Shown here piece by piece: positions 3,182-35,874 of a DNA stretch of 64,000 bases. Made by a program: the position numbers and the translations under genes. The notes beneath the pieces were generated by a model. The model was not told the DNA's origin. It made no database searches and saw nothing but the letters and a program-made list of their open reading frames with translations. Source of the stretch: Arthrobacter cryoconiti (lineage in GTDB: Bacteria > Actinomycetota > Actinomycetes > Actinomycetales > Micrococcaceae); NCBI RefSeq assembly GCF_020905375.1, contig NZ_JAJJBU010000027.1, positions 1 through 64,000 on the forward strand, in the 5' to 3' direction. How positions within the stretch are numbered: position 1 is the stretch's first letter; each line of letters opens with the position of its first letter.

Positions 3182-3209
3182 CCCAGACAAGTGCAAGCCA
3201 GGCCGCTAT

Positions 3210-3246
3210 GTCCGAAACAGCCAGATGCAGACACCTTGAGTTGATA
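3210..3246 (+). promoter_or_regulatory. Family B element, copy 1
   Basis: GTCCGAAAC, exactly 20 bp, then AGTTGATA. This is the most divergent of six 37-bp elements with the same two blocks and identical spacing. It lies 57 bp before ATG 3304. The 20-bp middle is nearly the same as in the copy at 4363 (CAGCCAGAT...CACCTTG), so these two form a sub-pair. Confidence 0.65.
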
Positions 3247-4309: not shown

Positions 4310-4362
4310 CTCCCCCTCCTTTACGGCTCCGAGAACCGACTACGAACATCGGCGAGACAGCT

Positions 4363-4399
4363 GTCCGAAACAGCCAGATCAAGTCACCTTGGGTTGGTA
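4363..4399 (+). promoter_or_regulatory. Family B element, copy 2
   Basis: GTCCGAAAC, 20 bp, GGTTGGTA. It sits 51 bp before ATG 4450 and shares most of its middle with copy 1. Within that middle, CAGATCAAGT also matches the family A box at 35813, which may be coincidence. Confidence 0.7.
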
Positions 4400-7455: not shown

Positions 7456-7460
7456 TGAAA

Positions 7461-8440: not shown

Positions 8441-8445
8441 AGGTC

Positions 8446-8764: not shown

Positions 8765-8766
8765 CC

Positions 8767-8803
8767 GTCCGGATTAAAGGAATGACGGCCCCTTGTGTTG
8801 GTG
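8767..8803 (+). promoter_or_regulatory. Family B element, copy 3
   Basis: GTCCGGATT, 20 bp, TGTTGGTG. The element ends 27 bp before ATG 8831 of the glutaredoxin-like gene, consistent with a promoter whose -10 region is the GTTGG block. Confidence 0.8.
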
Positions 8804-8830: not shown

Positions 8831-9295
8831 ATGGACGACCATTCAACGGCTGAGGCCGTAACGCTTTACGGGCACGCAGCCTGCGGGCAATGCAAGGTAT
8901 CAATTCTGGCTCTGACCAAAGCGGGCATCGCCTTTCAGTATCGAGACACCAGGCTGGATCCCGCAGCCCAAAAGCACGTCGAGGATCTGGGTTACACCTC
9001 AGTTCCTGTCACGGAGGCCAATGGTGAGCATTGGCATGGCTTCCGACCCGACCGGATCAAGGCACTCGCTGCCGCAACTTCAGTGCCCTCTCTTCAGGGA
9101 TTCAGCGATGACCCCGACGCGGTGATGCAACTGGCCGTCAGCAGAGGCTATTCCGAGGACCTGACAGACGGTGAACGTGACGACCTCCTGGATGAAGCCA
9201 GCTGGGCCCTTGCAGAGCAGGCCGATCACGCCGCGGGCGTCCAACCAGGCGCGGCCCTCACGGGGCTGCTGCAGGGCACCCAGCAGGCATCATGA
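8831..9295 (+). CDS. Glutaredoxin/NrdH-like protein with C-terminal extension
   Basis: 154 residues. Residues about 8-82 are a glutaredoxin-like thioredoxin fold: VTLYGHAACGQC with C18-x-x-C21, the GIAFQYRDTRLD strand-helix and a TSVPVTEANG cis-Pro region. The remaining 70 residues are an acidic helical extension not typical of NrdH or Grx. The protein is likely a cytoplasmic thiol-disulphide oxidoreductase of unknown target. The start follows GGGAGAG. Its TGA overlaps the ATG of the M50 protease gene, so the two are co-translated behind family B copy 3. Confidence 0.75.
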   Translation: MDDHSTAEAVTLYGHAACGQCKVSILALTKAGIAFQYRDTRLDPAAQKHVEDLGYTSVPVTEANGEHWHGFRPDRIKALAAATSVPSLQGFSDDPDAVMQLAVSRGYSEDLTDGERDDLLDEASWALAEQADHAAGVQPGAALTGLLQGTQQAS

Positions 9296-9958: not shown

Positions 9959-9965
9959 ATTAATC

Positions 9966-13803: not shown

Positions 13804-13840
13804 TACCAACAAGAGGTGCCGCGATCCGTCCAATCCGGAC
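13804..13840 (-). promoter_or_regulatory. Family B element, copy 4
   Basis: Read on the minus strand: GTCCGGATT, 20 bp ending in GGCACCTCT, TGTTGGTA. The element ends 25 bp before the preferred ATG of the coupling ATPase. Confidence 0.82.
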
Positions 13841-13872
13841 AAAACCCCGTTGCTATTAACTTGACAAGGGTA

Positions 13873-15884: not shown

Positions 15885-17459
15885 TCAGTCGCCGATCATG
15901 GTGAAGTATTCGCTTCCCGGGTTCCAGTCCACGGGGTGCAGCAAGGTGCCGACGCTGGGGTTGAGGGCGCTGTACATCATCCCGTCCCCTGCATAGATTC
16001 CTACGTGGGCCCAATGGTTGGGGCCGTCAGGATTTTGCACCACCAAATCCCCTGGTTGGGGGTTGCTGGTCTTCTTGCCCACCCCCCACTGTTCGGTCCT
16101 GGGGATACCTTTGATCCCCGCCTTGGTCATGACCCACTGCACATAGCCTGAGCAGTCCCATGCCTTGAAGGCGGTTCCGCCCCAGACATAGCTGCCGCCG
16201 AGCCCTTCCTTGGCCGCAGCGATGATCTTTTCCCTGGCAGCATCACCCTTGTATTCACCTGGCATGGGGTTGCCGGCGCCAAATTCATTTCCGGACGTGC
16301 AGTCAACGTTTCCGCCACCACCTGAACCGACTCGCTTCATCAGTGCTTGTGCGACTGGCTCCCATTTCCCGTAGGCGTCCGGCACGTTGGAAACCTGAAC
16401 TGCCTGGGCGGCGTCATTGACGCTCATCTTTTCCCATCCGCTGATCTGCAGGAGCCCTGGCGGACGGGTTTCGCCTGCCGGGTGGATCCCCCAGAAGGCC
16501 AGCGCGGACTTCTCTGGATTCATCAGCTCCTCAACTGTTCCCCAACCCATGGATGGCCGCTGCTGCACCAACCCCACCGAATCATGGTCGTTGCCGACCC
16601 GCTCATGGGGATAGCCATCGGATTCTGGCACCGAGGAGTTGGCATACATGAAGAACTTTGATTCCTGCAGGGCCGTGACGAGAAGGATCAGGATGGCTTT
16701 GTCTGACATTTTGCTCTTCCTGCCCTGAGCGATGACTCGGTCAACATAGCCCAACTGCACGGGGATCATGGTGATGCGGGTGCCAGTGGTGGCCTCCCCA
16801 ATGAAGTCCTGGCCGCTCCCACCCGAGGGCTGCCCGGGCGCCGCCGTTTGGGGTGAAGTGTCAATGGATGAGGGGCCGCCCTGGCCGAGCGTGATGCCCC
16901 GGGCTTTCATGAAGGGGACCGGATCCACTGCCGCACCGTTGACCATGACCTGGAAGTGAAGGTGAGCGGCAGTAGAGCGCCCGGTATTGCCCATGTTGGC
17001 CAGATGCTGCCCAGCCTTCACTTTGTCGCCTGCCTTCACCGTCGTGGATCCGGCCTGGGCATGCCAGTACCAAAGTTGGACGCCCTCCCCCGCATCCACG
17101 ATGATCCCGTGGCCGCCATCGCCATTCCCTGCAGTGCCTCCTGTGCCGTAGGCGGCGACAACCACTCCGCTGGAGGCGGAGTAGAAAGGGACGCCTTCAT
17201 CCCCTCCATCGATGTCCGTCCCATCGTGGTGGTCTGCAGTGCCTTCCAGCATTCTCCCGCCGAAGGTTGACGTGATCACGCCCTGCAGGGGGTTGGTCCA
17301 GCCGCCCTCTGCCACGGATCCCCCGATCAGACAGATGCCCGCGCTTCCTTGGGATCCGGAACCTCCGATGAGAGCACCCAACATGACCGGGACTACCAAG
17401 AAGGCACCTGCCACAGCGGTGACCACGGCAATGGCGCCGCCCACAAGCCACTTGTTCAT
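15885..17459 (-). CDS. Multi-domain cell-wall hydrolase (M23 + NlpC/P60)
   Basis: 524 residues, exported by an N-terminal membrane helix (GGAIAVVTAVAGAFLVVPVM). An M23 LytM domain follows (HHDGTDIDGG near 80, HLHFQVMVNG near 163). The central part (LILLVTALQESKFFMYANSS, then SVGLVQQRPSMGWG) looks like a lysozyme or transglycosylase-related segment. The C-terminus is NlpC/P60 (AWDCSGYVQW Cys near 430, HWAHVGIYAGDG His near 480). It would cut peptidoglycan peptides to let the transfer channel through. The ATG lies one base after the VirB6-like stop. Three potential wall-active modules in one chain is notable. Confidence 0.85.
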   Translation of the reverse strand: MNKWLVGGAIAVVTAVAGAFLVVPVMLGALIGGSGSQGSAGICLIGGSVAEGGWTNPLQGVITSTFGGRMLEGTADHHDGTDIDGGDEGVPFYSASSGVVVAAYGTGGTAGNGDGGHGIIVDAGEGVQLWYWHAQAGSTTVKAGDKVKAGQHLANMGNTGRSTAAHLHFQVMVNGAAVDPVPFMKARGITLGQGGPSSIDTSPQTAAPGQPSGGSGQDFIGEATTGTRITMIPVQLGYVDRVIAQGRKSKMSDKAILILLVTALQESKFFMYANSSVPESDGYPHERVGNDHDSVGLVQQRPSMGWGTVEELMNPEKSALAFWGIHPAGETRPPGLLQISGWEKMSVNDAAQAVQVSNVPDAYGKWEPVAQALMKRVGSGGGGNVDCTSGNEFGAGNPMPGEYKGDAAREKIIAAAKEGLGGSYVWGGTAFKAWDCSGYVQWVMTKAGIKGIPRTEQWGVGKKTSNPQPGDLVVQNPDGPNHWAHVGIYAGDGMMYSALNPSVGTLLHPVDWNPGSEYFTMIGD

Positions 17460-17460: not shown

Positions 17461-19554
17461 TCAGAAGCCCTTTACCGGATCGACGTGGCCCCGGTTTTCC
17501 CTCCGCACTTTTTGGCGCTCCTCCAGTCTGGCCAGCCGCTGCTGTTCTGCTTCCTTGGCGGAGGCCTTCTGTTGGTTGAACTGGGTCTCGGCTTTCTCGC
17601 CTGGGGCAAGCTTTGCCCGAATGGCGTCAGCCTTGGTGTAGGGGGAAGTCTGTAGCAGTTTGCTCCTGAGCTGCGTTTCCTTCCGGTCCAAAACGTCCTG
17701 CTGCGCAGAGCGACGCGGGGTCTTGTCTCGGCGGGCATCAACCGCGTCCAGCTTGGTGTGGATCTTCTCCTTGGAGGCCTTGACCTTTTCCTCGTGGCGG
17801 TTCAGCTGGGTCCGAAGTTGCTCGTTGCGGGCTGACCGGCGTGCAGGAGCGCTGTGGGCCGATACGGTGTTCTTGGCGAATTGTTGCGCCTTGGGAATGA
17901 CCACCGCGGCCACTTGAACACCCCTTGCTGCTACGCCCACGTATGGGATCTTTGCGGCAAGGCCAAGCGCCGTCTGGAGTTTGGCCCCACCTAAGGCCGA
18001 GGCGCTTTTGGTAGCTCCGGCACCACCTTGCGCAGCAGCTGAACCCCCTTTGGTGGCAGTGGTTCCGGCCTCGGCAGTTGCTGCGCCCCCCTTGCTGGGT
18101 GACGATGGTCCGCCTTTGACCGGGGTTGCTCCGGGGCCTCCTGTGGTGGCTTTTGCTTGCTTGTTCATTGCGCCCAACATGCGGGCTTGCTGCACGGTGT
18201 TGACCGTCTGCCTGACCACCTGGGCCCCGGTGACGGGCTGGCGCGGGGCCTGCCCTTTCGCCCCCATGAAGGAAGACATTTTTGCAGAGATCTTCCCGGC
18301 CGTCGCATGGAGTTTTTTCCTGAAGAGGAAGAGGAAGATGATGCCTCCCAGGAAGAGGGCTGCCAGGACCACGAATTTATTGCGCCCCAGCACATCCAGA
18401 GCGGTCAGGATCTCGATCACGAAGCGAAGATATAGAACCAGTGCCACCAGGGACAGGGCCACTGTGGCGATGGCGGCGAAGACCTGCAGGAGCACATTCC
18501 AGAAACCGGCCCGTTCGTCACCAGGAAGGAGCGCCAGGTATCCGGCGGGGATGAGTTGCAGGGTCCGCCAGGTCAGGACCGCGACGGAGAAGATCAAAAT
18601 GATGGCGAAGGCAGCCGCCATCAGAAAGAAGACCAGGATCCCGAGGCCAACACTGCCCAACAGGTCTAATTGGCCTGATGGGTGTTGCATGAAGAATTTT
18701 GCGTCTGGATCGCATTTGGCCACGGCGTCCCGCACGCTGTTGTCCCCGGTGTCTCCCGTTTTGACCGCCTTCATCTTTGCATCAAAGATCTTTTCGCAGT
18801 CTCCGGTGAGTTTCTTTCCGAAGCTGACGTACATGGAAGGGTCTCTGAGGAATATATCGGTGAGCTTCTGGTTGACGGTGGCGTTGATGACATCACTCGG
18901 GGCCAGCCCGCTGGCGTCCATGTTCTTTCCATCGGTGGCCATGGCAACCGCGGCCTGCCCGCCCATGTCGATGCTCTTGTGCAGCAGCCCGTTTGATCCC
19001 AGGATGGCCGTGGCCGGGTTTGCCAGGACACCGGTGAGCAGGACTGCTACCAGTGCACTGATAAAGAGGTTCAAGGCGCCGTGGGCGTATCGGCCCTTGG
19101 CGAGTTGAATGCCGTAGACCAGGCCGGCAATGGCCAGGGCAAAGGGGATGAAGTTGAGGCCGCCAAAGAGCGACTGAATCGTCGTGGCAAAGACCATGAT
19201 GGGTGAAGTCACCATGGACACCCACTGGAAGGAGAGCAGCCACTGGAAGAACCACATCGCGCCGTTGAGCATGGTGACACCCCAGCTCCAGAAGGTGTCG
19301 ATGTAGAAGGCGTTGATCATCTTGATGAGGTTGTCCATGCCACCGCGGTCAAAGGGAGGCACATTGTATTTATCGGCCGGCACCCCATGGGAGTCCGTGA
19401 CTCCGTTGAACTGATTCTCGTTAGGTGGTGCCGTGCCGTCGTCGGCGTGGGCCCCGGCCGCCGAGGCAACCAGAAGAAGGGCCAACAAGAAGAGGACGGC
19501 AAGAGCTCTCATCAACCAGGGCCTGGCATAGAGGGTGGCTGCCATTTTGTTCAT
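17461..19554 (-). CDS. VirB6/TrbL-like polytopic membrane protein
   Basis: 697 residues. A signal peptide (ALAVLFLLALLLVASAAGAHA) is followed by an extracytoplasmic loop and at least six membrane helices between about residues 85 and 430. A long Ala/Gly/Lys-rich, then highly charged cytoplasmic tail extends from about 440 and contains coiled-coil (KVKASKEKIHTKLDAVDARR, EAEQQRLARLEERQKVRREN). This is the layout of the channel protein VirB6/TrbL in actinobacterial T4SS. The ATG overlaps the VirB4-like stop. Confidence 0.78.
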   Translation of the reverse strand: MNKMAATLYARPWLMRALAVLFLLALLLVASAAGAHADDGTAPPNENQFNGVTDSHGVPADKYNVPPFDRGGMDNLIKMINAFYIDTFWSWGVTMLNGAMWFFQWLLSFQWVSMVTSPIMVFATTIQSLFGGLNFIPFALAIAGLVYGIQLAKGRYAHGALNLFISALVAVLLTGVLANPATAILGSNGLLHKSIDMGGQAAVAMATDGKNMDASGLAPSDVINATVNQKLTDIFLRDPSMYVSFGKKLTGDCEKIFDAKMKAVKTGDTGDNSVRDAVAKCDPDAKFFMQHPSGQLDLLGSVGLGILVFFLMAAAFAIILIFSVAVLTWRTLQLIPAGYLALLPGDERAGFWNVLLQVFAAIATVALSLVALVLYLRFVIEILTALDVLGRNKFVVLAALFLGGIIFLFLFRKKLHATAGKISAKMSSFMGAKGQAPRQPVTGAQVVRQTVNTVQQARMLGAMNKQAKATTGGPGATPVKGGPSSPSKGGAATAEAGTTATKGGSAAAQGGAGATKSASALGGAKLQTALGLAAKIPYVGVAARGVQVAAVVIPKAQQFAKNTVSAHSAPARRSARNEQLRTQLNRHEEKVKASKEKIHTKLDAVDARRDKTPRRSAQQDVLDRKETQLRSKLLQTSPYTKADAIRAKLAPGEKAETQFNQQKASAKEAEQQRLARLEERQKVRRENRGHVDPVKGF

Positions 19555-22082
19555 GCCAGGACCCCGTTGGATTCCCTGGGGGACTTCCGCCGGCCGTCAC
19601 CGTGGTCATCCGGTGTGGAGAGGATGGCCTGGAACCGCTCGTAGCGTGCCGGCTGGGTGATCTGTACCTTCCCATAGCGCTGCGCGGAGTCCCTGAAGAG
19701 GCATTCACCCTCCCGGCCGGTGTAGATCTTGTTGTTCTCATCCATGGGGGACATCTCGGTGGTGATGAGGTCAATCAGTTCCTCGTCGGTCTCGTCCAGC
19801 CCGAACCATCGCAGGCCACGGATGGCAAGGTTCTTATCCGTGTGCCGCATCAGGAAGCGTACTGGGATCAGTCCACGAACCACTTCATTGCCGAAGTCTT
19901 CCTCCGGGTCATGGCTGCCCAGGCCGATGGCCGTGCGGTGCTTCCTACCCTCGCGGACAAAGATCTCAACGACGTGGACGCCTTCAGGGGAGCTGGTGAT
20001 GTGATGGGCTTCGTCCACGATGAACAGTGCCAGGTCTTCTTTGTCCCTGAAACAGACTGCCTGGCCGATGCGGGCGAGCAGGGCATAGAGGCTGCGCCCG
20101 AAGATTTTCTCAATGGAGAGCTGGTTGAAGAGGTGAGCGTTGACCAGCTCGGCCGCGTTGGGCAGTTCGGTTCCTCTGGTGCACATGACTAGGCCGCGTG
20201 AGTCAAGGGGCAGGGGCGGCAGCGAACCGTCAAACAGGACCTTGCCGAGCTTTTTGCGGGCGAAGGCATCCATGCGGCGGCCCAGGTCTTTTGCCCCTTC
20301 CAGGAGGCAGCCCCCTTTTAGGTGTGCCAGAACCCCGCCCAGGGAGTCCAGCTCCTGTTGTTCCAGATAGTCCCGATCCAGCACCTCCGACAGGACAATG
20401 CCCATATCGTCGGTGGGGGCAACGTTCAAGAGCGTGGTGAAGACGGTCTCCACCATGGATGCACCCTCATAGACGCCAAAGACTCTCAGCGGATCCAGTG
20501 AGTATTCAGGGTTGGCAATCTCCAAGGCGATGCAGTCGGTCACGGAGGCTCCAAAGTCCGCCCATTCCATGGTTCCGGAACGATCAATGACGAAGAAGCG
20601 CCCGCCTCGATCGACCACCTCCCCCGTGGTCTTCTTCAGCAGAAACGACTTGCCGGCGCCCAGTTCGGCGCACACGGCGAAAGAACCAGATTTGTTGCCC
20701 AGCATGCTCCCCTCGATGTCGAAGAGCACCGGGGTTTGCCTGTTGGTGGAAATATTCATGCCCAGCAGGCTGCCTTTCTGGGCCCCCAATTCGGTCGAGG
20801 CAAAGGGGATGCCTCCGGCCAGGTCCCGGCCGGTGGTCAGCTGCGCGTATTCACGCACCGCCCGCGAGGTGGGCACGCCTACCTGCATCCCCCACCAGAG
20901 GTCTTCCTGCCCGCCCAACGGGGCGTCGAGGATCATCTCGATGCCTTTGTAGAACTTGCTGACCTCATCAGCCAGGTCGATGGCTTCTTGTGCGGTGGGT
21001 GCTCCGACCGCGAAGATGGCGGTCATCTGAACCTTGGTTTCCTTGTCTGACCGGTTCAGTGCCTGCTGGAAGTCTGCGAGGTCCGAGGCGTAGGAATCCA
21101 GCTCTGAGCTGGAGCCGGTGATTCCTTCATCGGTGCGTTGCCAATACTGATCGGCAAGCGTTGATTCTGCCTTGGCATTCTGTCGCTTGGCGACATCGGC
21201 GCCTGTGATAGTCAGGCGCATCACCCAATCAACATCGATCCCCAGGGTATCGGCCATGTACAGCCACTCGGTGCCCGGGAACATCATTCCGCCGCGTGGA
21301 GTTGCCGACACCGCCTGAAGCACTTGGTAGGAGGGTGTGTTGGCGGAGGCAATCTTGAGGAACCGGCGTGCGAACGGGTTCTTGACCTTCTTTCCAGCCT
21401 CGTCCGATTGCCCTCCTTCATCCAGCCATGGGTTTGGCATGGAGGAGCCCATCTGCATGATCTCCTCCGTGACATCTCCCTTGGCCGAGGCGGCCGGCAC
21501 GCGCCCATCGTGGGCCAGTCCTCGTTGCTGATGGTGGATCCCCATCCAGATGTGTTCTGCAGCCGTTGCTTTTCTGGGTTTGAACACTGAGGGGATGAGT
21601 TTGAAGATCAGGTCTGCCTGGTCTTGGGCATCACTGATTTCCTTCGCCGAGGGAACAATCTGGGGTAGCGCGAGCATTTCAGCGAATTCACGTTGGAAGA
21701 CCCCAATGGCGGATTTGATCATCTCCTGGGTGTTCGACCGCAAGGGTACGGAGAGCCAGAAGGCCCGGGTTCCAAGTTGAATGCCCTCCAGGCTGTCCAG
21801 GGTGGCAAGGACTTCTTCCTTCCACTCCGGGCACTGATCGATGTCCAGCCCTTCAATCATTTGCTCAACCACGGAGGCCGGATCTACGTTGGCCGTGAGC
21901 CCGGAAATCAACGCCTCCCCTTCAAAGGCCTGGAACAGTGCCTGGTGAAATGCCTTCACGGTCTTTTTGATCCGTGGCGGGCAGTATCCGTAAGCGACAG
22001 GCTCCAGTCGAAATGAGGCCCAGACGGTTCCTGACCTGGTGAACATCAGGTTCCCTGGAAGGGCTGTGGCTGGCATGCGCAT
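19551..22082 (-). CDS. virB4: VirB4-like conjugation ATPase
   Basis: 843 residues, starting at ATG after AAGGAG. The N-terminal half is the VirB4/TraC-like domain. Walker A is CAELGAGKSFLLKK near residue 475, Walker B is LALFIVDEAHH near 685, and IGLGSHDPEED follows. VirB4 proteins power assembly of and substrate passage through the conjugation channel at the inner membrane. It sits between the VirB3- and VirB6-like genes, the order expected for a T4SS. All key motifs are intact. Confidence 0.88.
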   Translation of the reverse strand: MRMPATALPGNLMFTRSGTVWASFRLEPVAYGYCPPRIKKTVKAFHQALFQAFEGEALISGLTANVDPASVVEQMIEGLDIDQCPEWKEEVLATLDSLEGIQLGTRAFWLSVPLRSNTQEMIKSAIGVFQREFAEMLALPQIVPSAKEISDAQDQADLIFKLIPSVFKPRKATAAEHIWMGIHHQQRGLAHDGRVPAASAKGDVTEEIMQMGSSMPNPWLDEGGQSDEAGKKVKNPFARRFLKIASANTPSYQVLQAVSATPRGGMMFPGTEWLYMADTLGIDVDWVMRLTITGADVAKRQNAKAESTLADQYWQRTDEGITGSSSELDSYASDLADFQQALNRSDKETKVQMTAIFAVGAPTAQEAIDLADEVSKFYKGIEMILDAPLGGQEDLWWGMQVGVPTSRAVREYAQLTTGRDLAGGIPFASTELGAQKGSLLGMNISTNRQTPVLFDIEGSMLGNKSGSFAVCAELGAGKSFLLKKTTGEVVDRGGRFFVIDRSGTMEWADFGASVTDCIALEIANPEYSLDPLRVFGVYEGASMVETVFTTLLNVAPTDDMGIVLSEVLDRDYLEQQELDSLGGVLAHLKGGCLLEGAKDLGRRMDAFARKKLGKVLFDGSLPPLPLDSRGLVMCTRGTELPNAAELVNAHLFNQLSIEKIFGRSLYALLARIGQAVCFRDKEDLALFIVDEAHHITSSPEGVHVVEIFVREGRKHRTAIGLGSHDPEEDFGNEVVRGLIPVRFLMRHTDKNLAIRGLRWFGLDETDEELIDLITTEMSPMDENNKIYTGREGECLFRDSAQRYGKVQITQPARYERFQAILSTPDDHGDGRRKSPRESNGVLA

Positions 22083-22989: not shown

Positions 22990-24027
22990 CTACTTTCCTG
23001 TTGGGGGGACTGCATTGGTGGTGGGTTTGGTGGTTGGTTTGGTGGTGATGTCTGGGTTGATCTCAGAGACCTCCCAGCGCCCTGCCCTTGCCTTCAGCAC
23101 CAGGGTGTAGTCGGCTGCTACCTGCTGGCCGGAGGCTGTCACCAGAAGGACCCTGGTGAGCGTGAGGATGGTGGCACCGTCTGCCGGAGTTGCCACCGGC
23201 TCGGTGGTTGCCTTGAAGTCCTGTGCCTTGACGGCCGCGTAGGGTGCTGGTGCGATGGCCACAATATTTGCGGTGGGGGCTGTGTAGCGGGTGATGTCGC
23301 CGACGCCGGCAGCGTAGGCCTGCAGGAAGCTGGAAATCGACTGCGCCAGTGGGTCAGAGGCCGGCACATTCTGGTTGAATCCATAGGCCTTGGTTGAAGC
23401 CGTCATCGGGGAAGCAATGGCCCGAGGCATCCCCACGGGGGAAATCTGCGTTCCATCAACGACGATTGCGACTTGGAAATACCGCTGTGGCCAGGAGCTG
23501 ACCGGCTTCTTGTCCTTATCCAAGTGGCTCTCCTTGACCTCCGCAGCCACCTGGACCTGGATCAGTCCGGAATCGCTCTTTGGCCCGACCGCGGCGACGG
23601 CAAGATTCCTGTACTCGAAAGGCACCTCCGGCAAGGAGATGGCCGAGAGATCGGCATAGGCGGACAGGCCTGCGTCGTTAGTTCGGGTGGCCGAAAGCCA
23701 TGACCCCACAAACCCCTGGGCAACGGCGCCCACATTCTGATCCGCTGTCGTAGCGACCTGGGAAGTCACCCGGGGCGCCGAGCTGGCCGGGCGTGAAAAC
23801 CCGCCCACCAGGAACGTAAAGATCAACGGCCAAATCAAGAACAGGGCAACCCAACACGAGACCGTAACGGCCTTCGTGGTGAGGGCCTGGCCCTTAGTCC
23901 AAGGGTTCGTTTCCCCATTGTCGGCAAAAACCAGGGTGCGGCGAACACCTGCCTTAGAAGCCTTCTTTGTAGGGTCCGGCATCTGCGGGTCCCCAACCTT
24001 CGCGGGCCCCTTGTTTTGGAGTCGCAT
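22990..24027 (-). CDS. TcpC/VirB8-like conjugation protein
   Basis: 345 residues. The ATG follows GAGGAG and is preferred over a GTG three bases earlier. After an N-terminal cytoplasmic stretch, one membrane helix lies near residues 52-75 (VSCWVALFLIWPLIFTFLVG). Two NTF2-like domains fill the extracytoplasmic part (AQGFVGSWLSATRTNDAG..., then ISSFLQAYAAGVGDITRYTA ... ADYTLVLKARAGRWEVSEIN). This matches TcpC, the VirB8-like scaffold of Gram-positive conjugation systems. Confidence 0.8.
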   Translation of the reverse strand: MRLQNKGPAKVGDPQMPDPTKKASKAGVRRTLVFADNGETNPWTKGQALTTKAVTVSCWVALFLIWPLIFTFLVGGFSRPASSAPRVTSQVATTADQNVGAVAQGFVGSWLSATRTNDAGLSAYADLSAISLPEVPFEYRNLAVAAVGPKSDSGLIQVQVAAEVKESHLDKDKKPVSSWPQRYFQVAIVVDGTQISPVGMPRAIASPMTASTKAYGFNQNVPASDPLAQSISSFLQAYAAGVGDITRYTAPTANIVAIAPAPYAAVKAQDFKATTEPVATPADGATILTLTRVLLVTASGQQVAADYTLVLKARAGRWEVSEINPDITTKPTTKPTTNAVPPTGK

Positions 24028-24029
24028 CA

Positions 24030-24251
24030 CTAAGCTCCTCTCTGCAGTCGTGCTGCCGCAGCGGATCCGGAGGCAAGCCTCTTCGAGCCCAAGAACCCCA
24101 GGAGACGCTTCTGTGCAACTTCGTCAAAGGGGTGCTGATGCATGTTTGCCAGGTGCGAAGTCAGCTCCCCCCGAACGGCAAAGGATGTTGCTACGTCCTG
24201 CAGGTCGGAGCCTTCATCCTCATCAAAAGCGTGGGCCGGATTGCTGCTCAT
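24030..24251 (-). CDS. Small acidic protein, first gene of T4SS operon
   Basis: 73 residues from the first ATG behind family B copy 5. It has an acidic start (AFDEDEGSDLQDVA) and a helical His-containing middle (LTSHLANMHQHPFDEVAQKR). No family is recognised. Its TAG overlaps a GTG just before the ATG of the TcpC-like gene. It might be a small regulator or chaperone of the channel. Confidence 0.65.
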   Translation of the reverse strand: MSSNPAHAFDEDEGSDLQDVATSFAVRGELTSHLANMHQHPFDEVAQKRLLGFLGSKRLASGSAAAARLQRGA

Positions 24252-24284: not shown

Positions 24285-24321
24285 TACCAACAAGAGGTGC
24301 CACCACAAACGCAATCCGGAC
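24285..24321 (-). promoter_or_regulatory. Family B element, copy 5
   Basis: Read on the minus strand: GTCCGGATT, 20 bp ending in GGCACCTCT, TGTTGGTA. It ends 33 bp before the first T4SS ATG. The sigma-like gene starts divergently 230 bp away. Confidence 0.82.
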
Positions 24322-24550
24322 ACGCGAACAAGAAATTCTTTGAAGATCTTTACCCTGCTAAAACCCTGGAGAAACAGTGCTCTGACCTGCGCAAACGCAA
24401 TTGGCAAGGCCCTACATCAGCCAACCCATCAAGTCCTGTTCTGTTGTTTTCCTGACCTAGCAAGGGATTTAGCAAGGGGCGTTTTTCTTGGCTTGACCTT
24501 AGACACCGCGCGCGAGTGATGCGCGAACAAAGCTTTCTAAGGAGACCGCC
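24322..24550. other. Divergent spacer between T4SS and sigma-like gene
   Basis: It contains a direct repeat TAGCAAGGG (24458-24466 and 24471-24479) and a TTGACC at about 24493 that may be the -35 of the sigma-like gene. An AAGGAG ribosome site precedes ATG 24551. I see no coding frame. Confidence 0.45.
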
Positions 24551-25318
24551 ATGGCCACGGCAACGTTCACCCACCTCAGCTGGGAACCAACAGTGAAGTC
24601 AGTGACAGCGACATTCGACTGCTACGCCGAACAGTCCCCAGTCGGGGCCTACCCCGCCCTGGGGGCCGTCCCTCTCGCAGAAATCCGTGACGCCTTCCGC
24701 TCCCCCGGACAAGACGCCTGGAAGGACCTGGTCCTCATGGAACTCATCCAGGCAGCACAGGCCGGCGACGCTCTCGCCCACATCACCGTCATCCGTTTGC
24801 TTATCCCCAAGGCCATCAAAGTCACGGCTTCATCCAGGGCTCTGCGCCTCTACTCCCTTGATGACGCCTTGAGCATCTACATCACCGCCCTGTGGGAGGC
24901 CATCCTGACCCACCCCGTTACCCGGAACCACCGCATCGCCTTCAGCCTGGCAATGGATGCCCTCGGGATCGTCAACGGTTCAGTCAAACGTTCCAACCGC
25001 AAGGTGACAGAAACATCCATGGACAACTTCAGCGACGAAGAGCTGGAAAGCTACGCCTTCCATGAAGACGACGCAGATCCGGAGCGAGACCTGGCAGAGG
25101 TACTTGCCTGGTCCCTGTCGGCAAAGATCCTCACCAAAGCCGAAGTCATTCTGCTCACCCGCTACTACCTGGCCGGCGACGTGCCCTCTTCACGAGAAAC
25201 CCTCATGGAGGAGCACGGAGTCAGCGCCGAGGCATTGCGCAAGAGGGCTTCCCGCATCCGGATCACGCTGGTCAACGCTGTGCGCCAGGAAGTCTCAGAA
25301 GCCGGCTGGGAGGCCTAA
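24551..25318 (+). CDS. Sigma-factor-like protein
   Basis: 255 residues starting at ATG after TAAGGAG. The middle (LAHITVIRLLIPKAIKVTAS, then YSLDDALSIYITALWEAI, about residues 78-118) resembles sigma region 2. The C-terminus (LTKAEVILLTRYYLAGDVPS, EEHGVSAEALRKRASRIRIT, about 190-240) fits a region 4 helix-turn-helix. It is probably an alternative sigma factor or a close relative that directs RNA polymerase to plasmid promoters. It lies beside family B copy 5 and is followed by a terminator, so it is a monocistronic regulator between the transfer and partition/Tad blocks. The match is by pattern only; it could be a sigma-like DNA-binding regulator instead. Confidence 0.6.
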   Translation: MATATFTHLSWEPTVKSVTATFDCYAEQSPVGAYPALGAVPLAEIRDAFRSPGQDAWKDLVLMELIQAAQAGDALAHITVIRLLIPKAIKVTASSRALRLYSLDDALSIYITALWEAILTHPVTRNHRIAFSLAMDALGIVNGSVKRSNRKVTETSMDNFSDEELESYAFHEDDADPERDLAEVLAWSLSAKILTKAEVILLTRYYLAGDVPSSRETLMEEHGVSAEALRKRASRIRITLVNAVRQEVSEAGWEA

Positions 25319-25404: not shown

Positions 25405-25870
25405 GCGTGCCTGCATGAATGCTGCACCCGGCTTAACTCATGCCCCTCCCCCACTCATCAGCAGCAATCCACTACGCATTTGTGATGCCAGAGTTTGCCC
25501 TTGGCCCACCTTCCCAATGCACCTTGCGTGCCCCCGCAAAGCGTTCACCAATATGATTACTGCAAAGGCCACGCACCGACAGAACACCCTGCAAGCCTAT
25601 TGAACGCATCATGCATGCATAGTGAATGCATATTGCCAATGCATGCGCCATGCGTGCATGATGCATGTAGAGATAACTCATATGCATTAGAGGTGCAGTT
25701 AAATTGTTAACCTTGTGCTCCCTAGAAGCCCTTGAGTATCAGTGGAATCATCATTCAATACGCCTAGCCTGCCCCTTCAAGTGCTGTTATTTCGATGTTC
25801 GTATGCAACCGCCTTGCACCCGACTTGCATCTAACTGTCTTGTGAATGCTCTTGCTATGCGCAGGTAAGG
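25405..25870. repeat. TGCAT/TGCGT-rich repeat region, putative centromere
   Basis: About 20 copies of TGCAT, TGCGT, TGCAA or their complements are packed here, densest at 25603-25690 (ATGCATGCAT, GAATGCATATTG, CCAATGCATGCG, GTGCATGATGCAT, ATATGCATT). The stretch is AT-rich for this molecule and contains no plausible gene. Immediately upstream of parA, it fits a partition site bound by the small partner protein, or an iteron-like replication site. Confidence 0.65.
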
Positions 25871-25878
25871 CGCTTATT

Positions 25879-26874
25879 ATGCAAGGTATGGACTCGACAA
25901 CCACACCAAACCCGTTTGCTCTCTCACAAGCCGTCAAGTTGATCAGCGATAGTGACCTTTTCAACCTGAGACGAACAATCGTCATCACCAACGGAAAAGG
26001 GGGAGTGGGAAAGACCAGCGTCACCACAAACCTCGCCACGCTCCTGGCCGAAGCCGGGTACAAGGTCCTGATCGTTGATATGGACTCTCAAGGAAACGTG
26101 GCCATCAATCTTGGCTTCTCCGATGACGAGCGGAATAATCAGGGCAAAGCCCTGCACCATGCCGTCACCTACAACGAAGTCCCTGTACCTCTCAAGGACA
26201 TTCGTCCCGGGCTCGATGTACTGACCGGCGGGCCGTTTACCAACCAGCTCATCGACGCCATCCACGGCGACACCCTTCGCGGTGGCAAGATGCGCGGCTG
26301 TATCGCCCGCGCCCTGGCGAAGATCGCCAATAACTACGATCTGATCCTCATCGACACCCCTCCATCCGATGCCGGCTTCGTCTTTGTGGATGAGGCAATG
26401 CTGGCGGCCCGCTGGATCCTCGCCCCGCTGCGCCCCGAACCCAAATCCATCAACGGGTTGTACAGCCTGGCCAGCCGCATTGAGCAGGTCCAATCCGCGA
26501 ACCCGTACATTCGCCTGCTGGGTGTGATTCTCTTCGGAGTTCCCTCCGGCGCCACTCGCGTTGAGAAACGACCCCGGGACATCCTGGGGGAGCGGCTGGG
26601 AGGAATCGCCCCTACGTTTAGCGCCAAGATCCGCAACGTCGTCGCAGCGGATGCCGACGCCTCATTCCGGGGCCAGGCTGCCCATGAACTCGCTGCAGAT
26701 GTCCTCAAGCAGGGCCCGTTCTGGGAACGACTCCGATCCGGGGCCTCCGCAACGCCTGTGCTGGCAGGCTCCGCCAGCTCCTTGGCCGAGGACTATATGT
26801 CCCTTGCCACTGAAATCATCGATGAGCTCAAGGCCCAAGAAGAAGCCTTCGACGCCGAAGCAGGAGAAAAATAG
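25879..26874 (+). CDS. parA: ParA-type partition ATPase
   Basis: 331 residues from the chosen ATG; ATG 25846 and ATG 25888 are alternatives. Deviant Walker A is NGKGGVGKTS near residue 40, followed by LIVDMDSQGN and the Walker B-like LILIDTPPSD near 155. ParA proteins position plasmids on the nucleoid with a DNA-bound partner. The following gene starts three bases after the stop and a repeat-rich putative centromere lies upstream. Because Tad genes follow, a role in placing the pilus cannot be excluded, but that niche is better filled by the TadZ-like protein. Confidence 0.85.
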   Translation: MQGMDSTTTPNPFALSQAVKLISDSDLFNLRRTIVITNGKGGVGKTSVTTNLATLLAEAGYKVLIVDMDSQGNVAINLGFSDDERNNQGKALHHAVTYNEVPVPLKDIRPGLDVLTGGPFTNQLIDAIHGDTLRGGKMRGCIARALAKIANNYDLILIDTPPSDAGFVFVDEAMLAARWILAPLRPEPKSINGLYSLASRIEQVQSANPYIRLLGVILFGVPSGATRVEKRPRDILGERLGGIAPTFSAKIRNVVAADADASFRGQAAHELAADVLKQGPFWERLRSGASATPVLAGSASSLAEDYMSLATEIIDELKAQEEAFDAEAGEK

Positions 26875-26876
26875 CC

Positions 26877-27443
26877 ATGACCGCTGACAACAAACTTTCC
26901 GCCCTGGGTGGCCTAAAGCGCACCGCGCAGCCTCAACCCTCTCCTGTCGTTGAACTGGTGCCTGAAGCTCCCGCCAACGACCCGACGCCGCAGCAACCAG
27001 CACCGCAGGAAGATGCCGTCACCGCAACCCCCGTTGCCGTCACACCCACCGCGAACCAGGAAGCAGCAGCCGGGGGAGGGGCAGCCGGGGAAAACCTCAC
27101 CATCAGGGCGTCGAAGGAGCTCATCAAGGCCTACGAAGCCCACAAGAACAGGACGAAGCTCTCCTTCGCCAATGTGCTCTTCAACGCCATCGACTCCACC
27201 TATCAACAGCTGCCGACCCTCCTGAACACCAACCAGGTCAAAGTCCCTGGGCCCAACCTCTTTGGCCGCGGTGAAGCTGTCGCCATGATCTCCGCCGATC
27301 ACTCTGAAAAAGACAGCAAGTCCATGCGAATCAACTCAAAGCACATGGCCGTGCTGGATAACCTCGCCACCGAACTGGCCGGCGGAAACCGCAATCGCTT
27401 GATTGTCACAGCCCTAACCGAATACCTAAAGGATGAAATCTGA
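26877..27443 (+). CDS. Putative ParB-like partner (centromere-binding)
   Basis: 188 residues. A Pro/Ala/Gln-rich disordered N-terminus (residues 15-75) precedes two short helical modules: LTIRASKELIKAYEAHKNRT near 80 and MRINSKHMAVLDNLATELAG near 145. Both have the strand-helix-helix look of ribbon-helix-helix proteins. Small, non-canonical ParB-like partners follow parA in many actinobacterial plasmids. It would bind the TGCAT-rich region. Its TGA overlaps the next ATG, so partition and Tad genes are translationally joined. Confidence 0.6.
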   Translation: MTADNKLSALGGLKRTAQPQPSPVVELVPEAPANDPTPQQPAPQEDAVTATPVAVTPTANQEAAAGGGAAGENLTIRASKELIKAYEAHKNRTKLSFANVLFNAIDSTYQQLPTLLNTNQVKVPGPNLFGRGEAVAMISADHSEKDSKSMRINSKHMAVLDNLATELAGGNRNRLIVTALTEYLKDEI

Positions 27444-28108
27444 TGAGTACGCTGACAGCCCCTGGGGAAGCCGTCGCCGAGAAGCCTGAGAAGCGCAAAA
27501 GCCTTGGTTCGCCGGTCCAGTCAAAACCACGCAAGCCCATCATCGGCGCCGCCATCGCCATGATCATCGTCTTTGCCCTGGTCTTTGCCTGGCTGCTCAA
27601 CACTCAAGGGCAAAACCTCACCGTCTTCGCCGCCAAGTCAGACATCAGCCGCGGCCACGTCATGACCGTGGACGACCTTACCGCGGTTCAGATCCCCGAA
27701 GGCCAGCCCATCCCTCACTACCTCACCACCCAACAAGGTGAGGTAGTCGGGAAGACTGCCCAGGTCGATATTCCCCACGGCTCCCTGGTCACCCCCAACA
27801 CCATCGGCACCGGCTCCGGCCTGGGACCCGACCAGTCCATGGTCGGCTTATCCCTGACCAATCAACAGCTGCCGCCCTACCCGCTGACCAACGGGGACAA
27901 GGTCCGCATCGTCAGTACGCCGGCCAACCTCGCAGAAGCTCCCAAGGAAGCGCCCGCTGCCATCAGTGCAACCGTCATCTCATCCCAGAGGGACACCGTC
28001 TCCGGACAAACCCTGGTTGCTGTTCTTGTTCCGAAGTCCGATGCGCCAGCACTGGCAGCCAAGGCGGCAACCGGCCGGGTGGCGCTGATCCTGGACGGTG
28101 GCAAGTAG
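27443..28108 (+). CDS. SAF-domain protein, CpaB/RcpC-like
   Basis: 221 residues. One membrane helix lies near residues 33-52 (IIGAAIAMIIVFALVFAWLL). A SAF domain follows (VFAAKSDISRGHVMTVDDLT, GKTAQVDIPHGSLVTPNTIG), as in CpaB/RcpC proteins that help assemble Flp pili at the envelope. It overlaps the gene before it and is followed directly by the TadZ-like gene. Confidence 0.78.
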   Translation: MSTLTAPGEAVAEKPEKRKSLGSPVQSKPRKPIIGAAIAMIIVFALVFAWLLNTQGQNLTVFAAKSDISRGHVMTVDDLTAVQIPEGQPIPHYLTTQQGEVVGKTAQVDIPHGSLVTPNTIGTGSGLGPDQSMVGLSLTNQQLPPYPLTNGDKVRIVSTPANLAEAPKEAPAAISATVISSQRDTVSGQTLVAVLVPKSDAPALAAKAATGRVALILDGGK

Positions 28109-28110
28109 TC

Positions 28111-28941
28111 ATGGCCACCATCTTGATGATCAGCCTCAGCGGTTCACCTGGGGGATCCACCGCCGCCATGGCCCTCACCCGCTGCTGGTACCGCAAGGCC
28201 ATCCTTCTTGAAGCGGACACTTCGAAGGCCTCGTCCTTCCTGTCCGGTTACCTCAAGGGCCGGTATGGCAGCGACAAGAATCTAATCAACCTCGCCGTTG
28301 CCGCAGACCAATCGGGGCACCTGGACTTCAATGACTTGTGGGCCCAGCTCTTGCCCTTGGACACCGACAATCCGGAACAGGCCCAACAATGGCTCCTTCC
28401 CGGGCTGATGGAGGCCAAAAGCGCCCCCTCCCTGGACCACCTCTGGGGAGACATCATCTCTGCCGCCGACACCTTTGAAGCCTCCGGAACGGACGTCATT
28501 ATCGACGCCGGCCGGTGGAGCGTGGGGGACAAGCGCACAGCACTGTTGAGGGCAGCAGATGCCGTCATCATTGTGGCTCGCCCCTCCCTTCCGGACGCCT
28601 TCGCCATCCGGTACCGCCTGGAGGAGATCCAGGGCGACTTGGCCAGCATCGGGCGTGGCGATCACCTCAGCACCGTGCTGATCGAACGACCCTCCAGCCC
28701 ATACTCGTCTCATGACATGGCCCGCAGCCTGGGACTACGCATCACCGGATCCCTGCCGTGGGATGAGAAGACCGCTGCCGTTTTCAGCGACGGCGCACAA
28801 GTCACCAATCCTGGCCGGTTCGAAAAGCGGCCCTACATCCGCGCCATTGACCACCTCTCCGGCGCCCTTCGTAGCGAACTGGATGAACGACGCGGCCTGC
28901 TCAATGAGGCGCTCGATATCGAATTGGAGGACCTGGCATGA
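28111..28941 (+). CDS. tadZ: TadZ/CpaE-like MinD-family protein with degenerate P-loop
   Basis: 276 residues with a MinD/ParA-like fold: N-terminal ILMISLSGSPGGSTAAMAL where the Walker A should be, KAILLEADTSKASSFLSGYL, VIIDAGRWSVGD and ADAVIIVARPSLPDA. The deviant Walker A lacks both conserved Lys residues, so ATP hydrolysis is probably lost, as in some TadZ proteins that act as pole or membrane landmarks for the Tad machine. The stop overlaps the TadA start. Confidence 0.75.
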   Translation: MATILMISLSGSPGGSTAAMALTRCWYRKAILLEADTSKASSFLSGYLKGRYGSDKNLINLAVAADQSGHLDFNDLWAQLLPLDTDNPEQAQQWLLPGLMEAKSAPSLDHLWGDIISAADTFEASGTDVIIDAGRWSVGDKRTALLRAADAVIIVARPSLPDAFAIRYRLEEIQGDLASIGRGDHLSTVLIERPSSPYSSHDMARSLGLRITGSLPWDEKTAAVFSDGAQVTNPGRFEKRPYIRAIDHLSGALRSELDERRGLLNEALDIELEDLA

Positions 28942-30458
28942 GCATCACCCCCGATAATGTGGACCTCTTCAAGGACCTCCCTCTGGCCCTGCCCACCACA
29001 CCGCCGGCCCAGCACCCTGCCGCTGCCGCGCTGGCAGCGGCAGGCCAACGCAACGGCCGCCGGGTGGCCTCACCAGCTGCCCCATCCGAGCCTGTGGAGA
29101 CACCGCCCCAGAAGACGGTACCGACTCTCTCCCCTGACGGTGATGCTGAAATTGATCCTTCCGATAACTGGGAAGTGGTTGAACGGCTTGCTAATGAGAT
29201 CTCAGAGATCCGTGGTTCCAGGGATGAAACCCCTGAAAACAGGGATGAGCTCGGCCGTGCCATCATTGCCACCGTGTTGGCCGACTTTAGCGCCGCCCGC
29301 GTCCGCGATGGAGATCCTCGCCTGACGCAGCAGCAACACAACGATCTCCAGCAGATCCTGTTCAACCAGGCCTACCGCATGGGTGCCGTCCAGCCGTTGC
29401 TGGATGACCCCACCATCGAAAACATCCACATCAACGGATGCGATGAGGTGATCGTCCGACGCGCGGACGGCACCCAGGAAAAGGTTGCTCCTGTTGCCTC
29501 CAGCGACCAGGCCTTGATCGAAATGGTGCAGACCTGGTGTGACGAACTGGGGGAGGGCGCCCGGGAATTCAACGCAAAGATGCCCCAGCTCTCCATGACG
29601 CTCGCCTCAGGGGATCGTCTCCAGGCAGCCCACCCGCCCATCGCTCCGCGGCCCACACTGACCATCCGCTGCCACCGCATCAAGGAAATTACCCTTGATG
29701 AACTGGTGGAAAGATATGGCACCCTCACTCAGGACGCAGCAGATTTCCTGGCCGCCTGCGTGCGTGCGCACATGTCCGTCGTGGTCTCTGGGCACCCCGG
29801 TGCCGGTAAGACCACCTTCACACGGGCTCTGTGCGCCAATTTCGATCCGTGGGAACCCGTCGTGACCATCGAGACCGAACGTGAGCTCCACCTCGGCGCC
29901 CCCAACCACTTCAACGTAAAATCCCTCGAAGCCCGCCCCGGACAGGGAGAACGGGATCCGAAGACGGGTGAGCTGATCGGCTCGATCACTGTCGGTGGGC
30001 TCATCCCTTCCGCACTTCGTTTCGACGCTCAGCGCATCATCGTGGGTGAGGTGCGCGGGCCTGAGGAAATTCTGGCCATGCTCGCAGCGATGACCGGTGC
30101 CGCTGGCTCTATGACAACCATCCACGCCAAAACAGCTAAAGACGCGATTTCAAAGATGGCGGATCTTCAGCAACAAAGCCTGGGTACCTCACCGGCCTTT
30201 GCCTACCGCCAGATTCAGGACCATATCCAGATCATCGTCCAGCTCTCCCGGCCCTCCGGGAAGAAGCGGCACATCACGGAGATTGCTGAAGTGGTGCCCA
30301 GTGGTGATGGCGAAAGCCCTGGAGCCAATCCAATCTTCCTTTCACCCAAACGCGGTGCGGATGCCATCTTCACGGGCTATGAACCCCATGATGACTTCCT
30401 TGAAGAGTTGGCTCAGGTGGGATATCACCGTGACCGGCTGAGAGGGCTGGGATCATGA
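28938..30458 (+). CDS. tadA: TadA/CpaF secretion ATPase
   Basis: 506 residues. A Pro-rich N-terminal region of about 85 residues precedes the GspE/VirB11-like core: Walker A SGHPGAGKTT near residue 283, the Asp-box ETERELHLGAP, Walker B-like RIIVGEVRGPE near 367 and the His box MTTIHAKTA near 392. It forms the cytoplasmic hexameric motor for Flp pilus extension. Overlaps TadZ (4 bp) and TadB (4 bp). Confidence 0.92.
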   Translation: MSITPDNVDLFKDLPLALPTTPPAQHPAAAALAAAGQRNGRRVASPAAPSEPVETPPQKTVPTLSPDGDAEIDPSDNWEVVERLANEISEIRGSRDETPENRDELGRAIIATVLADFSAARVRDGDPRLTQQQHNDLQQILFNQAYRMGAVQPLLDDPTIENIHINGCDEVIVRRADGTQEKVAPVASSDQALIEMVQTWCDELGEGAREFNAKMPQLSMTLASGDRLQAAHPPIAPRPTLTIRCHRIKEITLDELVERYGTLTQDAADFLAACVRAHMSVVVSGHPGAGKTTFTRALCANFDPWEPVVTIETERELHLGAPNHFNVKSLEARPGQGERDPKTGELIGSITVGGLIPSALRFDAQRIIVGEVRGPEEILAMLAAMTGAAGSMTTIHAKTAKDAISKMADLQQQSLGTSPAFAYRQIQDHIQIIVQLSRPSGKKRHITEIAEVVPSGDGESPGANPIFLSPKRGADAIFTGYEPHDDFLEELAQVGYHRDRLRGLGS

Positions 30459-31327
30459 ATGCTTTCCTCGCCATCAGCTGCGCCCTGGGGATGGGGGTGG
30501 GAATCATCCTGATCATCACGGAGCTGACGCGGACCCCCACCAAACCCAGCCGTAACGGCCGGACCAAGTCACCCATTTCAAAGCTGAAGTCCAAAATTGG
30601 GCCCCAGCAGTCCCTCTACCTGGTCATCGGTTTGGTAGCCGGCCTTCTGCTCTTCTGGCGTACTGGCTGGCTGGTGACCCTGATCGCCGTGCCGGCGGCA
30701 GCCGTTCTCCTCCCACCGATTTTCAGCACCGCACGGAGCAAGAATGAGATTGCCAAGCTGGAGGCCTTGGAAGCCTGGGCACGATCACTCTCGGGCCTCA
30801 TCAGCACCGGGGCCACCTCGCTGAGTCAGGCAGTAACAACCAGCCTGCCGAACTCTCCCGAGGTCATCCGTCCCGAGCTGAACAACCTGGTGGCCAGGCT
30901 CAACACCCGCTGGACGCCGCGGAGGGCCTTCAAAGCCTTTGCCGACGACCTGGACGACCCCACGGCCGATCTACTCGCCGCACACCTCATCCTGGCCTCC
31001 ACGATCCGTGTCTCCGGACTCTCCGATGCCCTGGACGATCTTGCCCAAACCATCTTCGAGGAGATCCGGCAGCGCCGGGAGATCGATGCGGCCAGGGAAA
31101 CAAACCGCACCACCGCCAAATGGGTCACCATTTTCACCCTGGGCACCATGGTGGGCGCGGCAACCCTCATGGCCGAATTCTTCTCCGTCTACAAAACCCC
31201 CATCGGGCAGGGCATCCTCCTCCTGATCGTCGCCGCCTACGCTGGCGCACTGAAATGGATGCACTCCCTCAGCAAACCCGATCTGCCCCCCCGGATCCTG
31301 GTTGACGCGAAAGGAGCCACCTCATGA
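30455..31327 (+). CDS. tadB: TadB-like inner-membrane platform protein
   Basis: 290 residues of type II secretion F-domain architecture. Membrane helices lie near residues 5-25 and 52-85, and two more at the C-terminus (WVTIFTLGTMVGAATLMAEF, GQGILLLIVAAYAGALKWMH). The cytoplasmic domain contains EALEAWARSLSGLISTGATS. It forms the platform in which TadA drives pilin polymerisation. Overlaps both neighbours by ATGA-type junctions. Confidence 0.85.
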   Translation: MNAFLAISCALGMGVGIILIITELTRTPTKPSRNGRTKSPISKLKSKIGPQQSLYLVIGLVAGLLLFWRTGWLVTLIAVPAAAVLLPPIFSTARSKNEIAKLEALEAWARSLSGLISTGATSLSQAVTTSLPNSPEVIRPELNNLVARLNTRWTPRRAFKAFADDLDDPTADLLAAHLILASTIRVSGLSDALDDLAQTIFEEIRQRREIDAARETNRTTAKWVTIFTLGTMVGAATLMAEFFSVYKTPIGQGILLLIVAAYAGALKWMHSLSKPDLPPRILVDAKGATS

Positions 31328-32199: not shown

Positions 32200-32321
32200 G
32201 GAGGAAACCTGACCAGTCAAAATTTGAAGAGCAACCCACATTCAAACCAGCCAGCCGCATCCCGCGGCACCGCTCAAGACCATCAAAATTCAGAGTTACC
32301 TAGACTAATTACCAAACCAGT

Positions 32322-32358
32322 GTCCGAATCCTGGATTTATTGACACCTCTTGTTGGTG
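32322..32358 (+). promoter_or_regulatory. Family B element, copy 6
   Basis: GTCCGAATC, 20 bp ending in GACACCTCT, TGTTGGTG. The element ends 29 bp before ATG 32388 of the pilin gene, giving the pilin its own promoter inside the tad locus. Confidence 0.82.
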
Positions 32359-35790: not shown

Positions 35791-35825
35791 GTCGGGGTGT
35801 CAGCGAACTTGGTTGACACCCCGAC
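35791..35825 (+). terminator. Hairpin overlapping promoter -35
   Basis: GTCGGGGTGTCA and TGACACCCCGAC form a perfect 12-bp stem with an 11-base loop. Its 3' arm contains most of the -35 hexamer of family A copy 6. There is no clear U-tract. Confidence 0.6.
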
Positions 35826-35870: not shown

Positions 35871-35874
35871 GTTC

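Follow-up and report, generated by a model that had tools for sequence, protein, structure and literature searches.

A divergent sigma factor-like protein on an actinobacterial conjugative plasmid and its candidate promoters: a probable family of plasmid sigma factors with plasmid-specific promoter elements

The stretch analysed here (the window) comprises the first 64 kb of the 123,773-bp plasmid contig C20, which belongs to a genome of 3.6 Mb. A gene for a sigma factor-like protein was found in the window, divergent from a transfer operon on the minus strand and followed downstream by genes of a Tad pilus (Table 1). The pilin gene was assigned from its motif and its position inside the Tad genes, its Pfam matches being restricted to DUF4244 at E 0.014 and two weaker ones. 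A cluster of ATGCAT/GCATGC-like repeats, which is perhaps a partition or replication site, was noticed between the sigma-like gene and the ParA-like gene.

Table 1. Coordinates of the genes, elements and repeats on the plasmid contig (window positions unless marked C20)
Feature	Position	Strand	Remarks
Sigma-like gene, 255 aa	24551..25318	+	intact ORF, ATG start, AAGGAG-type ribosome site upstream
First transfer-operon gene, 73 aa	24030..24251	-	no Pfam match
TcpC-like conjugal transfer protein	22990..24030	-	PF12642, E 1.1e-8
VirB4-like ATPase (AAA_10)	19551..22082	-	PF12846, E 2.2e-39
Cell-wall hydrolase, M23 and NlpC/P60 domains	15885..17459	-
FtsK/SpoIIIE-like ATPase, 795 aa	11391..13778	-	PF01580, E 3.5e-5, just under cut-off; start taken as an ATG having a ribosome site
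Tad genes: ParA/TadZ-like, SAF (CpaB-like), CpaF-like ATPase, TadB-like	25846..31327	+
Flp-type pilin, 75 aa	32388..32615	+	contains RERGSLTLEQIIWTVAIAVIAIA
Glutaredoxin-like protein	8831..9295	+	PF00462, E 6.3e-8
Family B element, TGTCCG-N17-CACCTCTTGTTGGTA	24285..24322	-	upstream of transfer operon, divergent from sigma-like gene
Family B element	13804..13841	-	upstream of FtsK-like gene
Family B element	32321..32358	+	upstream of Tad pilin gene
Family B element	3209..3246	+	upstream of 65-aa ORF (ATG 3304)
Family B element	4362..4399	+	upstream of 119-aa ORF (ATG 4450)
Family B element, degenerate copy	8766..8803	+	2 mismatches to the pattern; 65 nt before glutaredoxin-like gene
Family B element, exact copy outside the window	C20 120520-120557		near contig end, before 165-aa ORF
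Family A sites (approximate)	2281-2343, 5057-5119, 7397-7459, 8382-8444, 9900-9962, 35813-35875	+	putative sigma-A-type promoters
LysM protein gene behind family A promoter	35813-39000
ATGCAT/GCATGC-like repeat cluster	25590-25690

The initial annotation had placed a repeated element, family B, divergently from the sigma-like gene. This element is real, and a repeat search recovered four further copies in the window, all with the same spacing. The five copies consist of TGTCCG, 17 unconserved nucleotides and CACCT-N3-GTTG.T, where the spacer is exactly constant. With a degenerate copy and an exact copy outside the window, seven copies were found on the plasmid contig. The pattern TGTCCG-N17-SRCCT-N3-GTTGRTR has six exact matches in the 3.6-Mb genome and all six are located on C20, five of them being the sites from which the pattern was built and the copy at 120520 being new. 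When up to two mismatches were allowed, eight of nine genome matches fell on C20, and a reversed control pattern gave two matches. None of the seven copies lies in front of the block of Tad genes, and none of the listed sites precedes the sigma-like gene itself, where positive autoregulation would place one. Judged by their sequence, these sites are candidate promoters with a consensus confined to the plasmid in this host genome.

The first bases of the presumed -35 and -10 blocks of family B are 23 nucleotides apart, a distance which is ECF-like. On 16 plasmids with 87 sites of the element or its counterparts (see below), the -35 block was observed to lie at a median of 77 nt (interquartile range 66-86) before the chosen start codon. 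A ribosome-site-like motif was found at 79 of these sites, a count that is biased upwards since the start chooser favours such motifs. Two blocks separated by a 17-nt gap, in one orientation and with start codons following at a median distance of 77 nt, have the form of a promoter. In addition, an A+T-rich tract is located just upstream of the -35 block at the transfer-operon sites (53% at 18 sites, as compared with 39% at 85 other sites and a plasmid mean of 34%). The -10 block was found to be without a TA-rich core in most plasmid variants, and conservation of the element extends past the normal -10, to GTTGGTA on C20, where a plain promoter needs none. The repeated element could instead act in the 5' leader, as RNA or as single-stranded DNA, and be no promoter, as the conserved block runs to GTTGGTA, near the expected transcript start; but the TGTCCG block and the unconserved gap of 17 nt have no obvious role in a leader, and we give this reading almost no credence.

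The sigma-like protein can be divided into an N-terminal extension (residues ~1-58), a region 2-like part (~59-141), a linker of ~35 residues and a region 4-like part (~177-250). Single-sequence searches with the window protein found no match in Pfam at E 10 and none in the PDB. Among the NCBIfam models, those of SigI match residues 62-126 (E 3.6e-4), far below cut-off (19.8 bits against a cut-off of 319), which does not amount to membership of the SigI family, and the III-E CRISPR RpoE-like model matches residues 154-240 (E 0.21), again far below cut-off. The strongest evidence for a sigma fold comes from a profile of the family, which was built from an 18-member alignment of plasmid homologues. 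This profile was aligned by hhalign to eight ECF sigmas of the host genome with a probability of 95.4% and a score of 61, over 162 columns which are colinear from region 2 through region 4. The control, five LuxR-type regulators, gave 11.3% and a score of 28, restricted to the helix-turn-helix. The ECF set consisted of eight of the ten over-cut-off TIGR02937 proteins of the host, the longer L210 and L215 being omitted, and the control set of five of the six below-cut-off TIGR02937 matches (L223 omitted), whose LuxR-type label was read from the sequence without a family search. Against the PDB, the family profile matched ECF region 4 with a best E of 0.0057.

Individual members of the family are recognised to differing extents. 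Sigma70_r4_2 matches seven of the 18 members at E<=1 (best 4.8e-4), the window protein not being one of them; TIGR02937 matches seven of the 18 at E<=1; and the SigI models match five, in the window protein over region 2. Pfam Sigma70_r2 was absent among the 25 of 27 families listed for the 18 members. The conserved part of region 2 in the family (DA..., WE.I.TYPL) is the stretch that was aligned to region 2 of known sigmas. The window protein is very divergent and carries sigma region 2-like and region 4-like parts, as the initial annotation had described from patterns in the sequence; the SigI match, the RpoE-like match and the colinear ECF profile match bear this out. No anti-sigma gene was recognised beside the sigma-like gene. 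The gene had also been described as the only sigma-like gene in the window, and no other was found on the whole plasmid contig: none of the 16 TIGR02937 matches in the host genome, ten of which are over cut-off, is located on C20, the window protein itself being too divergent to be among them.

The predicted structure agrees with a sigma fold at a low level of confidence. A single-sequence model of the protein (pLDDT 43) was discarded, and the best model, obtained from three sequences, is poor with a mean pLDDT of 49.8. Using this model, the first 38 rows of the Foldseek output were, judging from their titles, either sigma factors or else transcription complexes and models of RNA polymerase in which one is present; no Foldseek match reached E<=0.001, the best E being 0.075. 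All 50 matches listed by VIA were RNA polymerase, sigma or transcription-complex entries. In the VIA matches residues 7-135 of the model fall on sigma region 2 and residues 163-255 on region 4; Z reaches no more than 6.6, a value that does not settle the matter for a helical protein. The leading structural matches are thus consistent with the suggested sigma fold and add little weight to it. Since the model is poor and the Foldseek and VIA scores are weak, the assignment of a sigma fold rests mainly on the profile comparison, which supports it more firmly than the structure does.

The protein might also be a sigma-derived, two-part DNA-binding activator or repressor which acts at a bipartite site beside a host promoter. 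A region 2 that is far from Pfam's model and an element conserved beyond the normal -10 would both fit such a regulator. However, the spacing, orientation and distance to start codons described above are those of a promoter, the conserved region 2 stretch aligns to region 2 of known sigmas, and the A+T-rich tract lies upstream of the -35 block at the 18 transfer-operon sites. We consider the activator or repressor unlikely and a sigma factor more probable.

Relatives of the sigma-like protein were found by tblastn in 50 plasmid records, all with less than 60% identity. The annotation under the match was 'sigma-70 family' in eight of the 11 Rhodococcus records and 'hypothetical protein' in the other 42 of the 50. 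Twenty-two of these records were fetched (17, then five), picked for diversity. In 20 of the 22 loci the sigma-like gene and the transfer operon diverge from each other; in the other two, from Streptomyces and Kitasatospora, the gene lies directly upstream of the operon and is codirectional with it. A profile search found the homologue to be single-copy on all 20 further plasmids. For example, a Cutibacterium acnes plasmid has the same gene order as the window plasmid, one homologue and four copies of its own element. In the plasmid records that were opened, transfer and pilus genes of this kind mostly bear the annotation 'hypothetical'.

VirB4-like genes of the window kind occur in 264 plasmid records; of the 60 listed, 24 lie outside the 50 tblastn records. 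Four of those 24 plasmids were opened, and all four were found by profile to carry a divergent homologue (E 9.8e-27 to 7.3e-61). The co-occurrence of protein and transfer operon thus holds in these four plasmids, which tblastn had left without a match. Profile matches at E<=1e-8 were found in 19 of 396 genomes of the order and in 15 of 396 of the phylum, the window genome being included in both. Searches of viral contigs with the window protein and five other homologues gave no relative, as did a search of genome contigs with the window protein; genome contigs searched with one Microbacterium homologue gave two loci. We noticed that the genes which follow the sigma-like gene vary. On pAL1 (L007 16814-29608), a BREX defence system separates the sigma-like gene from the ParA/Tad genes. 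On the Rhodococcus plasmids L013, L018 and L064 a cutinase-family gene follows the sigma-like gene, a place taken by Tad genes on many Micrococcales plasmids.

A matrix made from the five window sites alone did not work on distant plasmids, since the variant of the element differs from plasmid to plasmid. The stretch in front of each transfer operon, first picked by eye, was taken as the sole seed for a gapless matrix which was scanned against its own plasmid. Seeded in this way, 17 of 20 plasmids gave 2-12 copies. The sites numbered 7 on C20, 5 on W01, 5 on W02, 10 on W03, 8 on W14, 5 on W04, 5 on W05, 3 on W06, 12 on W10, 2 on W11, 2 on W15, 1 on W17, 7 on W13, 7 on W20, 5 on W07, 3 on W12, 10 on W08, 4 on W16, 1 on W18 and 1 on W19. 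A blind seed yielded an element on two more plasmids, W17 (three copies) and that of C. acnes, so that 19 of the 21 plasmids carrying the protein, the window plasmid included, have their own multi-copy variant. The co-occurrence of protein and element, whose absence would have refuted the proposal of the initial annotation, is thus strong. The remaining two, W18 (L020) and W19 (L022), have the protein beside the transfer operon and gave no repeated element with either own-site or blind seeds.

The matrices are trained on the sites that they score and the scan is gapless, and the constant spacing within a plasmid is therefore built into these counts. When the gap was left free by +/-1 base, the second-best site kept the spacing of the seed on 13 of 14 plasmids, pAL1 being the exception. 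Random sequences of matching dinucleotide make-up gave no site in 63 of 64 replicates (16 plasmids), although this null is generous since it scores the finished matrix only. Of the control seeds taken before other genes, 177 of 240 gave one site only, and nine of 204 (17 multi-copy plasmids) reached or passed the count of the element. One of the nine is the element itself (W03), one a TTGACA-type promoter family (W05) and seven are G+C-rich stretches. We also carried out a blind test in which each stretch of the divergent region served in turn as the seed. A plain count of mismatches was swamped by base composition, and log-odds seeding was used in its place. The element ranked first on 14 of the 21 plasmids, pAL1 included and C. 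acnes, where the blind seed had defined the element, not counted; on W06, W07 and W12 one or two other seeds outranked it, and on W15 it was not in register among the best four seeds.

Each variant of the element was observed almost only on its own plasmid. Among 15 plasmids with three or more sites, whose matrices were built from by-eye seeds and scanned against one another, three of 210 off-diagonal cells were above zero: W03 on W14 (one site), W14 on W03 (four) and W06 on W13 (one). The same was found for plasmids residing in one strain. In Microbacterium sp. No. 7 the counts of own and other sites are 8/0 and 5/0, in Curtobacterium sp. C1 they are 5/1 and 2/0, and in Glutamicibacter nicotianae 5/0 and 1/0, the second plasmid of the last having its seed only. 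As co-resident plasmids differ in their variant, a host factor offers no easy explanation for the element.

The variants were also found to change with the protein. Over 16 plasmids, distances between -35 blocks track those between regions 4 (Mantel r 0.50, p 2e-4). This correlation remains at 0.39 when region 2 is taken into account, as compared with -0.08 for -35 against region 2 given region 4, and the -35 distance against the N-terminal part gave r -0.006. Distances between -10 blocks correlate with regions 2 and 4 alike (0.54, 0.55) and weakly with the N-terminus (0.25, p 0.01), and the link to region 2 is therefore not specific. All these values are confounded by shared ancestry and serve as support only, the very divergent N-terminus being a weak control.

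These results bear on a further rival reading, in which a sigma factor or regulator encoded on the host chromosome recognises the element and the neighbouring protein does something else. Candidates are at hand, given the ten over-cut-off TIGR02937 matches in the host genome, but all six exact matches to the pattern lie on the plasmid contig (five of them pattern-making sites), two plasmids within one strain use different variants, and the -35 variant tracks region 4 of the plasmid protein. A host factor is very unlikely in the light of this evidence, and the plasmid protein is again the better candidate.

The genes downstream of the element overlap from plasmid to plasmid. Of the 16 plasmids compared, 15 have a homologous first transfer-operon gene behind the element, and FtsK-like proteins of 689-795 aa occur there on nine plasmids, the FtsK-like group being a single-linkage cluster of 12 into which three shorter proteins were drawn. 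Flp-type pilins are linked to the element on six plasmids, SAF/CpaB-type proteins on three and LysM-type proteins on three. As on C20, the glutaredoxin-family gene of pGnB68 has that plasmid's own element. It is only a guess that the 73-aa first transfer gene encodes a partner or feedback regulator of the sigma factor.

A second set of repeated sites, family A, consists of six putative sigma-A-type promoters in the window, with TTGACA, a 17-nt gap and a TAnnTT-like -10. A constant TATATATGTCAGAT stretch follows these promoters, close to the start codon. Family A is probably a second plasmid regulon with an operator for a putative repressor. On W05 (pC1c), the control seed mentioned above uncovered a second repeated promoter family of five sites, at ~50240(+) and elsewhere, in which TTGACA is followed by CTATATT-GTAAGTGT; this family is perhaps the counterpart of family A. 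The LysM protein gene of the window lies behind a family A promoter. LysM-type genes are instead found behind the sigma-type element on pGnB68, as well as on two further plasmids where they were assigned by homology, and the two regulons seem to swap a LysM-type target.

Taken as a whole, it is highly probable that these proteins are a family of sigma factors borne on plasmids, that each is paired with a cognate promoter code, and that they control conjugation and Tad pili. The initial annotation had proposed that the window protein is a plasmid sigma factor reading family B and controlling the conjugation and Tad genes, and both the co-occurrence and the profile comparison point the same way. 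The window protein would be a plasmid-encoded alternative sigma factor with a minimal architecture of region 2 and region 4 which binds the core of the host RNA polymerase. Its region 4 would read the -35 block (TGTCCG on C20) and its region 2 the -10 block (CACCT...), located 17 nt downstream of the -35 block. Transcription would then start for a plasmid regulon made up of the divergent type IV transfer operon, the FtsK-like ATPase, the Tad pilin, the glutaredoxin and a few small genes, so that the direction of control is expected to be activation. Across actinobacterial plasmids, factor and promoters seem to have diverged together, giving each plasmid a private promoter code which is barely shared by its neighbours and by which co-resident plasmids might be kept apart. 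We lean slightly towards a wider reading, in which actinobacterial plasmids carry a large, self-serving family of sigma factors and promoters with mutually private codes, co-resident plasmids fire independently and the divergence is driven by the avoidance of cross-firing.

The window protein resembles the ECF (group 4) sigmas in having region 2-like and region 4-like parts and in the colinear match of its family profile (95.4%). It differs from them in a region 2 that Pfam does not recognise, in an N-terminal extension of ~58 residues and in having no recognised anti-sigma gene adjacent to it. ECF promoters have blocks of the GGAAC / CGTC kind, whereas those of the window plasmid are TGTCC and CACCT. 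The SigI family of Firmicutes provides the best single-sequence match (residues 62-126), but this match is confined to region 2 and the C-terminal part of the window protein resembles region 4.

There is precedent for a plasmid sigma factor whose regulon lies on its plasmid. SigN (ZpdN) of the Bacillus subtilis plasmid pBS32 is plasmid-encoded, controls plasmid genes through a promoter consensus of its own and activates its own promoter; after DNA damage, its regulon brings about the death of the cell (PMC6751061). The window protein is likewise a candidate plasmid sigma factor with a plasmid regulon and its own consensus. The target here would be transfer and no element precedes the sigma-like gene, unlike the cell death and autoactivation of SigN. 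In addition, SigN is described from one Bacillota plasmid, whereas the present family is found across Actinomycetota with a code that differs per plasmid, the comparison being one of their descriptions. Plasmids of C. acnes have been described with conjugative and Tad/Flp functions, and 'sigma' and 'regulat' do not occur in the main text (PMC5696575). The available portions of PMC12915292 and PMC6941271 contain no mention of a sigma factor for transfer. In the open-licence PMC literature we found no report of this sigma family, its regulon or a private promoter code.

To our knowledge, little seems to be known of how transfer by large actinobacterial plasmids is controlled. The present analysis names a gene, gives promoter motifs plasmid by plasmid and lists the targets, which makes the proposal directly testable, also on plasmids from Rhodococcus, Streptomyces, Micrococcus and skin Cutibacterium. 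The putative sigma-promoter pairs differ in specificity and lend themselves to following how regions 2 and 4 change their target, and they might also serve as orthogonal parts in actinobacteria. In soil and skin actinobacteria, large plasmids seem each to switch on their own spread by a code of their own and, if this is true, several conjugative plasmids in one cell would fire their transfer and pilus genes independently.
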